Source: Virgibacillus doumboii
Lineage (GTDB): Bacteria; Bacillota; Bacilli; Bacillales; Amphibacillaceae
Direction of reading: 5' to 3'
DNA length: 64,000 bases
NCBI RefSeq assembly: GCF_902806455.1
Contig: NZ_CADCWQ010000001.1
Coordinates: 1,054,001-1,118,000, forward strand
In this document: one piece after another, positions 28,843 to 58,804 of the stretch
Layout: each line of letters opens with the position of its first letter
Position numbering within the stretch: the first letter of the stretch is position 1
Program-made: the position numbers and the translations under genes
The notes under the pieces: generated by a model
Database searches by the model: none
Told to the model about the DNA's origin: nothing
What the model saw: the letters and a program-made list of their open reading frames with translations, nothing else

Positions 28843-29310
28843 ATGCCAAAAGGAAACGGGAAAGCCATCGCACAAAATAAAAAAGCAAGGCATGATTATT
28901 TTATAGAGGAAACCTATGAGGCCGGGATTGTCTTAAAAGGAACGGAAATTAAATCGATCCGGGCCGGCCGTATAAATTTAAAGGATTCGCATGCTCGGAT
29001 TGATCGCAATGGTGAGGTTCAACTGGTCAATATGCATATTGCGACATATGAACAAGGGAACCGATTCAATCATGATCCGACCCGGACACGCAAGCTATTG
29101 CTCCACCGCAAAGAAATAGATAAACTGATTGGATTAACACAGCAGCAGAGCTATACACTTGTGCCATTGAAGGTTTACATTAAAAACGGTGTAGCCAAAG
29201 TGTTGATTGGCCTTGGAAAAGGGAAAAAGAAATATGACAAACGTGAAGATGTGAAGCGGAAACAGATGAAGCGTGATGCCGATCGGGCTGTTAAGGAAAG
29301 TATGCAGTAA
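28843..29310 (+). CDS. smpB: SsrA-binding protein SmpB
   Basis: Binds the tRNA-like part of tmRNA and brings it to stalled ribosomes for trans-translation. 155 residues, normal. Visible: the N-terminal oligonucleotide-binding beta barrel with [26 protein letters not shown], and the C-terminal basic tail [26 protein letters not shown] that enters the ribosome mRNA channel. Ribosome site GTAGGAGGAAG. The ssrA gene follows 107 nt later with its own promoter. Confidence 0.97.
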
Positions 29311-29323
29311 ATCTTTCCAGCCC

Positions 29324-29351
29324 TTGATTTTAGTGAGGTTTGTGATATAAT
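29324..29351 (+). promoter_or_regulatory. Promoter of ssrA
   Basis: TTGATT (29324-29329), a 16-nt spacer, and an extended TGATATAAT -10 (box at 29346-29351). The predicted start is about 60 nt before the mature tmRNA 5' end. Confidence 0.55.
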
Positions 29352-29417
29352 GATAGTTGTCGTTAAAGACATATAAATGAATATTGCTCGTTCTATTCCG
29401 AGCGATTCTCCTTACAT

Positions 29418-30054
29418 GGGGACGTTACGGATTCGACAGGGATAGATTGAGCTCAGGCTGCGCGTCGAGGTTACGGCTCGTAAAACGTTATCGCCTATAA
29501 TAACTGGCAAAGAAACAAATCAACCTGCTTTAGCAGCTGCGTAAGTAGTTCTAAAGCGATCCTTCCTGCTATCGCCCGTGTGGCAGATTGAAGGGTCTCA
29601 AATGAAGCGGGCTATACTGTCATCCACCGTCTGAGGATGATAGTTGAAACGAATCAGACTAGCTCTTCCAAAGCCTGTTGGTAGGCTGAGGAATGAGTGA
29701 ATGATAATATACCAACTAAGCGTGTAGATGCTTGAGTGGCGATATCTCTGGACGTGGGTTCGATTAGTAACTAGTCGCCTTTTGTGGCAACACAAAAGTG
29801 AAAATCCGGCTTAATCGGTGAAACCTAAGTCGCTTTAAGCGATACGGCAATGCCGAGCGGTGTGTGGAGCAATCCAACAGCCGTGTATCGACTCATAGGC
29901 TGCCATGATCATGGTAGTACTAGGATGTGGAATCATACCAGTTGTGGTAAATTTACATTCCGCATAAGACGCCGGAGAATCTGGAAAATCAGGTTCAAGA
30001 TATAGTCAGTGCCATGTCGAAAGCATGGAAGAGCACGTCCCACCGTCTCCACCA
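29418..30054 (+). ncRNA. ssrA: Transfer-messenger RNA, interrupted by a group I intron
   Basis: Rescues stalled ribosomes by acting as tRNA-Ala and as a short message. The 5' end GGGGACGTTACGGATTCGACAGGG and 3' end CGTCTCC-ACCA form the acceptor stem. The tag reading frame begins at GGC 29506 and ends at TAA 29542, giving GKETNQPALAAA after the alanine carried by tmRNA. Exon 1 is 29418-29764 and exon 2 is 30038-30054; between them is a 273-nt intron in the T-loop. Spliced, the T-arm becomes GTGGG-TTCGATT-CCCAC and the mature RNA is about 364 nt. Unspliced, the tRNA-like domain could not form. Confidence 0.95.
29765..30037 (+). ncRNA. Group I self-splicing intron in the ssrA T-loop
   Basis: The sequence after TTCGAT is not tmRNA and resumes tmRNA at TCCCACC after a G. 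A P1 hairpin forms across the 5' site: exon CGAU then UAG, loop UAA, CUAGUCG, with a U-G pair at the cut. P2 is CTTTTGTG-GCAA-CACAAAAG (29779-29798, GNRA loop). A P/Q-like pair lies around GGTGAAACCTAA and ACGGCAATGCCGAGC. R-like ATCGACTCATAG (29888-29899) and the canonical S element AAGATATAGTC (29997-30007) form P7. A P9-like hairpin CCATG/CATGG precedes the terminal G (30037). It carries no endonuclease gene, so mobility alone is unlikely. Style suggests subgroup IC; this is tentative. Confidence 0.9.
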
Positions 30055-30076
30055 ATACATAAGTTGGTGGTTTTTT
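30049..30076 (+). terminator. Intrinsic terminator of ssrA
   Basis: CCACCAA (starting in the tmRNA CCA end) pairs with TTGGTGG (30064-30070), followed by TTTTTT. Confidence 0.85.
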
Positions 30077-30093
30077 GTTTGTAACTGTTACGT

Positions 30094-30156
30094 AAAGCAT
30101 AAATCTTCCATTTGGAAGGTTTATGCTTTATTTAGTTTTTGGAAGATTTATGCTTT
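30094..30156. repeat. Three-arm inverted/direct repeat
   Basis: AAAGCATAAATCTTCCA (30094-30110) is inverted relative to TGGAAGGTTTATGCTTT (30113-30129, 16 of 17 match) and to TGGAAGATTTATGCTTT (30140-30156, perfect). The first arm can pair with either of the other two. No gene is visible in 30077-30436; the rest holds the ECF promoter. Confidence 0.7.
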
Positions 30157-30349
30157 ATTATCGTAATGCGTCACCTTTTATTGAGTTTATATTAACTAGT
30201 TTTTGTCGAGTTTTCAGGGTAAATCCAATGCAAAGTTCCCTCAATAGGCTTACTTAAATTTATTGATGTGATTTTATAAAAAATATCCATATCGGTTTCA
30301 GATTGTACAAGTAAAAAAGATGGAAAAGCCAACGTTTTCAAAGTAAGTT

Positions 30350-58661: not shown

Positions 58662-58677
58662 ACTATCATAAAGTAAG

Positions 58678-58804
58678 AGGTTTTCTAGGGTTCCGCAGCA
58701 GAGGCTGGGCTGGTCCGAGAGAAAACGCACGGAACGTGTACACGGCGGGACAAAAGCCCGGGAGGATATCTGAGTGATGGATATCGTCCCGGGCTTTTTT
58801 ATTT
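58678..58804 (+). promoter_or_regulatory. Guanidine-I (ykkC-yxkD) riboswitch with terminator
   Basis: Conserved ykkC-class blocks occur in order: TTCTAGGGTTCCGC, CTGGTCCGAGAGAAAAC, ACACGGCGGGACAAAAGCCCGGGAGGA. The last block merges into a terminator: GCCCGGGAGGATATC (58756-58770) against GATATCGTCCCGGGC (58779-58793), then TTTTTT. Guanidinium binding should hold the aptamer and let transcription reach the exporter genes. Class assignment rests on the conserved sequence and on the genes controlled. Confidence 0.9.

Follow-up and report, generated by a model that had tools for sequence, protein, structure and literature searches.

Group I introns in the T-loop of tmRNA are already documented. 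A published report (PMC11915505) gives 883 unique sequences at four subsites, position 7 being the main one; the position-7 introns come from 21 phyla, predominantly Bacillota, and a homing endonuclease gene is counted in 23 of 844 introns. Furthermore, a tmRNA intron of 287 nt from Clostridium botulinum is cited as previously shown to self-splice (PMC2729099). In the stretch of 64,000 nt from Virgibacillus doumboii analysed here (the window), the tmRNA gene ssrA carries an insert of 273 nt (29765..30037, + strand) in its T-loop. Compared with the position-7 introns as PMC11915505 presents them, this one shares the gene, the T-loop internucleotide position (with the numbering inferred from a figure legend of that paper), the Bacillota host, the -1U.G pair in P1, the terminal G and the lack of an endonuclease gene, and in what that paper states we found nothing categorical that differs. 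Actually, the insert lies between loop nucleotides 6 and 7 and joining the exons rebuilds the T-loop, as in position-7 introns. The C. botulinum intron, likened here from its description in PMC2729099, is also in tmRNA and of similar size, whereas the host is different. The intron is genuine and adds one more case to a kind already known; the arrangement is already published and is neither new in kind nor rare. A preliminary description of this DNA had called such introns rare, which does not agree with the number of unique cases in print (PMC11915505) or with the family counts given below.

The gene for SmpB, the protein partner of tmRNA, precedes ssrA on the + strand (28843..29310; open reading frame with a Pfam SmpB match, E 2.5e-62), and ssrA itself occupies 29418-30054. 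A consensus scan marked a promoter-like site at 29324..29351 on the + strand (TTGATT, 16 nt, TG-TATAAT), one of 4 such sites in 29250-30250 where shuffled sequences gave a mean of 2.0. The 5' exon (29418..29764; RF00023 148.7 bits, ARAGORN start at 29418 on the joined sequence) contains the acceptor strand GGGGACG, the tag frame, the pseudoknot region, the 5' strand of the T-stem and T-loop bases 1-6, and it terminates in ...GTGGGTTCGAT at 29764. The 3' exon (30038..30054, placed by ARAGORN on the joined sequence) starts with TCCCAC and holds the last T-loop base, the 3' strands of the T-stem and of the acceptor stem, and the encoded CCA. Both exons are on the + strand, as is an intrinsic terminator-like hairpin at 30049..30070, whose start lies within the encoded CCA of ssrA; therefore, 3' processing is presumably needed as well.

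The joined stretch across the exons reads GTGGGTTCGATTCCCAC. It restores an exact T-arm (GTGGG-TTCGATT-CCCAC, that is, a 5-bp T-stem GTGGG/CCCAC and a 7-nt T-loop) together with the acceptor stem GGGGACG/CGTCTCC, and ARAGORN reads the joined exons as a standard tmRNA of 364 nt with the tag GKETNQPALAAA. The preliminary description had placed the same boundaries and predicted the same T-arm, and its coordinates for the insert proved exact. ARAGORN also prints an overlapping 'permuted' reading of the joined sequence, because the piece is treated as circular. The gene thus has tRNA-like ends, a tag frame ending in Ala-Ala and an RF00023 match, the pseudoknots being taken as a region. Nevertheless, standard annotation stumbles here: ARAGORN gave no tmRNA on the unspliced ssrA stretch or on the whole 64,000-nt window, and the default Rfam scan gives a tmRNA ending at 29766 and no intron. 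The RF00023 match covers 29426-29766 (148.7 bits), with the 3' strands of the T-stem and the acceptor stem left unplaced by the model.

Within the insert we could draw a complete group I architecture by hand, all on the + strand. P1 (29761..29777; 7 bp, UAA loop), backed also by the alignment and by folding, carries the 5' splice site as a U29764.G29774 pair, which is U.G in 25 of 25 alignment rows; its outermost pair beside the loop is unpaired in 9 of the 24 rows with letters there. P2 (29779..29798; 8 bp) is capped by a GCAA tetraloop, shows two-sided changes in 4 of its 8 pairs and is also found by folding. The hand-drawn structure and the alignment then place the 5' strand of P3 (29805..29810, pairing with 29971-29976), P4-P5-P5a (29815..29856, where P4 is 29815-29820 with 29851-29856) and P6 with P6a (29857..29884). 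The 5' strand of P7 (29890..29893, GACU) pairs with AGUC at 30004-30007 and is invariant in the alignment, and RF00028 places it as well. Two further hairpins, P7.1 (29900-29917) and P7.2 (29925-29965), the extra hairpins of group IA type, fill 29900..29965; two-sided changes occur in 7 of the 9 pairs of P7.2. After them, on the same two grounds as P3 to P6a, come the 3' strand of P3 (29971..29976), P8 (29978..29995) and, downstream of P7, P9.0 (30009-30011 with 30034-30036) and P9 (30012-30028), both within 30009..30036. J8/7 and the 3' strand of P7 together form the S element AAGATATAGTC (29997..30007; also placed by RF00028), invariant in 25 rows. The last base, 30037, is the terminal (omega) G, identified from the sequence and the alignment and present in all 25 related introns parsed. 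Therefore the U.G at the cut, the GNRA-capped P2, the canonical S element and the terminal G reported in the preliminary description are all there. The helices run from P3 to P9, P3 and P7 are interleaved and the S element sits at J8/7-P7, which is what defines a group I core.

Extra hairpins P7.1 and P7.2 between P7 and the 3' strand of P3 are a feature of the group IA subtype. On the modelled structure, P7.1 and P7.2 place the ssrA intron among the group IA introns; as far as PMC3984707 deals with them, P7.1 and P7.2 are named only as features used in classing. The 26 introns measured run from 270 to 308 nt, plus one of 425 nt with an insertion, so the 273 nt of this intron are among the shorter lengths. 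A homing endonuclease gene within the intron was ruled out, the longest stop-free stretch being 58 codons.

Regarding covariation, the helices were drawn on the window sequence (P9.0 was later trimmed to three pairs, which removed an overlap) and were then read in an alignment of 25 rows, the window intron and 24 introns of other genomes. The alignment omits L012 (presumed counterpart of L045), L017 (its gene is already present as L108) and L020/L021 (from G025, with an intron longer by around 150 bases). Over 81 named pairs and 2017 cells, 97.1% show standard pairing. Two-sided changes were found in 28 of the 81 pairs against a shuffled mean of 16.1, and 131 cells were changed on both sides against 35.6 in the shuffles; in neither count did any of 500 shuffles reach the observed value. 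Controls in which the structure was slid along gave 3 to 10 pairs with two-sided changes, a comparison biased towards the structure, since it had been drawn on the window sequence. The changes fall in P2, P3, P5a, P6, P6a, P7.1, P7.2, P8 and P9. In the same 25 rows P1, P4, P5, P7 and P9.0 had none, and therefore covariation lends little or no support there and these helices are based on pairing and conservation.

The insert resembles the group I catalytic intron family RF00028 over the full length of the model (29755-30028, E 7e-11), although its score of 47.3 bits is 2.7 bits below the cut-off of 50, which is a curated threshold and not a structural criterion. The search with this model, one of the checks proposed in the preliminary description, thus gave a match by E-value, but one that is absent at the default threshold: since 47.3 is less than 50, the gathering scan of the window does not list the intron. 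The lack of a model hit, named in that description as counter-evidence, therefore applies at the default threshold only and not by E-value. Four related introns were also scored. L010 and L072 gave 41.2 and 43.5 bits, and those of L018 and L029 had no RF00028 match at E 0.01; because two of four relatives score low and the other two have no match, the generic model is weak for these introns. The scores of three other introns of the same genome were 65.7, 69.7 and 73.8 bits. In energy folding the whole stretch exceeded all of 100 shuffles in stability (z -4.58), but its minimum-energy fold did not reproduce the full group I fold. P1-P2 fold as drawn, with 3 of 200 shuffles as stable, and the stability of the P9 region was not unusual (40 of 200 shuffles as stable). 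The group I identity claimed beforehand is thus borne out by the RF00028 match, the covariation beyond 500 shuffles and homologues of the insert in 11 of 59 genomes.

We consider it about 95% probable that the sole detected ssrA is interrupted in the T-loop by a group I intron, which is spliced from the pre-tmRNA to restore the tmRNA. This explanation is built on the sequence, the structure, the covariation, the single gene copy, the homologues and the empty sites; the splicing, its dependence on guanosine and the need for it before the tmRNA works are what we infer from the knowledge of group I introns and tmRNA. Once folded as a group I ribozyme, the insert in the pre-tmRNA would hold U29764 in P1 through the U.G pair; attack by a guanosine cofactor directly after this base would release the 5' exon, which would in turn attack after G30037. 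Joining the exons would rebuild the T-loop UUCGAUU, so that the tRNA-like domain could form and allow charging and SmpB-dependent trans-translation, with end processing expected to follow splicing. Regarding gene copies, a single tmRNA scores above the cut-off in the whole genome (3.9 Mb, 99.99% complete). A second intact ssrA, which the preliminary description had named as an observation that would speak against this role of the intron, was not found genome-wide; the other 15 matches are weak, below the cut-off and at most 27.7 bits.

The RF00028 score below the Rfam cut-off could also mean a decayed intron that no longer splices and would leave ssrA as a pseudogene. Such decay is hard to reconcile with the retention of the invariant positions of the 25-row alignment, including the splice-site U.G and the terminal G, with exon and intron helices that are intact, and with an intact smpB in a genome with no other tmRNA above the cut-off, and we regard it as very improbable. 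Excision by protein nucleases, as in fragmented rRNA, would instead yield a two-piece tmRNA; two-piece tmRNAs do exist, in the permuted form mentioned in PMC11915505, but here a 3' piece of no more than 17 nt would result, and excision by nucleases would have no need of the full ribozyme core, guide and terminal G that the insert has, which makes this route slightly less probable still. That the insert is an artefact of assembly, or an insertion that has nothing to do with introns, has next to no chance of being correct, and nothing was found in favour of it: homologous inserts, with covariation, occupy the identical position in other genomes, and these homologues refute it.

Of 59 related genomes, 11 contain DNA that matches the insert (12 of 60 counting the genome of the window). 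Within the genus, 2 of 12 genomes have the intron, the present one included, and 10 have an uninterrupted site. The comparison with a neighbour lacking the insert, suggested in the preliminary description, is given by G002, the nearest relative in the host tree: its site is empty, with the same junction bases, and its exon is 95% identical. In the family, junction patterns, which look at the junction rather than at the entire intron and overlook sites whose flanking letters differ, detected the 5' junction of a filled site in 37 of 159 genomes (own included), an empty site in 118 and neither pattern in 4. No filled junction preceded by a base other than U was seen in the 159 genomes. Among 80 loci fetched by SmpB, 15 were filled, 57 empty and 8 had no pattern-matching site in the fetched stretch; loop base 6 of the 57 empty loci was C in 45, T in 11 and A in 1. 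Intron presence is thus patchy.

A host tree was built from smpB and the 5' exon, with 26 filled and 66 empty sites among its 92 rows; eleven rows have under half of the columns, the long branches L080 and L087 join, and L094 was dropped as its exon was not parsed. On this tree intron presence requires at least 18 changes; the well-supported branches taken alone force 11. Presence is only mildly clustered, because random labels need 22.8 changes on average and 7 of 500 shuffles were as low as observed. For the intron tree the family set had nine members: eight were the window intron or introns with a family handle, and the ninth was L029, put there by name and host-tree place. In the best tree, weakly supported with 4 of 22 inner branches starred, the nine family introns do not form one clade, and a single clade was not rejected (p-AU 0.0923). 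Intron and exon similarity among 25 introns are weakly correlated (Mantel r 0.344 in core and 0.254 in variable columns, with 0 of 2000 permutations as high in each).

By whole-intron identity the window intron is closest to that of L072, which belongs to another family (identity 87.2% for the intron, 74.3% for the exon), with G017, of the window's own family, almost level (87.1% and 89.8%); in the variable region, counting gaps as differences, L072 is again the best match at 72.4%, before G017 at 69.8%. With gapped columns omitted, the introns are 76.5-87.2% identical to that of the window at a host exon identity of 67% or 92%. This pattern would fit a ribozyme that is strongly constrained, an intron that has moved horizontally to some extent, or both. 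The intron appears to come and go among relatives by gain, loss or transfer.

The base before the junction may record part of this history. In the family, empty sites have U at loop base 6 in 36 of 63 cases in genera with filled sites and in 20 of 55 in the others, a difference with Fisher p 0.028 on counts tallied by hand and with no correction for kinship. By eye on the 92-row tree, the empty sisters of five intron-bearing branches carry U (window/L103, L018/L027, L014/L028, L066/L077, and L108 with seven neighbours), and those of two others carry C (L093/L091, and L078 with L088 and L100). A tentative idea, which we rate as rather unlikely, is that the intron cycles through the tmRNA genes of these Bacillales, enters sites with U at base 6 and leaves the U upon precise loss, so that U-bearing empty sites would mark past occupation and the base would be shaped by the intron. 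It agrees with the finding that none of the 159 genomes has a filled junction with another base at this place. It is equally conceivable that the U was there beforehand and made the site permissive.

Other elements were observed in this genome and its relatives. A flagellin gene of the same genome (C1 ~903.3-905.9 kb; L114/L115), its N-terminus identified by Pfam, apparently contains a pair of group I introns, which score 73.8 and 69.7 bits, and a reverse-strand frame of 314 aa just downstream (L115:2013-2957) looks by eye like a LAGLIDADG endonuclease; flagellin introns are mentioned for thermophilic Bacillus in PMC3984707. A gene for the large subunit of ribonucleotide reductase in the same genome has a group I intron (L116:1501-1815, C1 ~1582.4 kb; 65.7 bits), and the frame L116:2681-3313, with no Pfam match, may at a guess be an endonuclease. 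The tmRNA intron of G025 reaches 425 nt because of the extra bases, around 150, in its P5 region. A stretch of 162 nt of this insertion (L021:1341-1502) has diverged, partial copies at three other places of G025 and two in G004, with none in G000 or G031, and judged from these copies the insertion is a putative small dispersed repeat nested in the intron; we presume a similarity to the bcr1-type repeats. An Rfam scan also placed a guanidine-I riboswitch in the window (58674-58766, 82.7 bits). In L022 (Lentibacillus kapialis) and L023 (L. salicampi) no ssrA T-arm was found within 2 kb after smpB; the genomes presumed to correspond have ssrA elsewhere on the contig, and therefore an insertion may separate smpB from ssrA in these two species.

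Provided that splicing takes place as predicted, this organism would rely for its tmRNA-based ribosome rescue on a ribozyme that lies within the single tmRNA gene detected. Furthermore, two closely related genomes, one with and the other without the intron, offer a handy natural setting in which to compare what such introns cost and how they are gained and lost.
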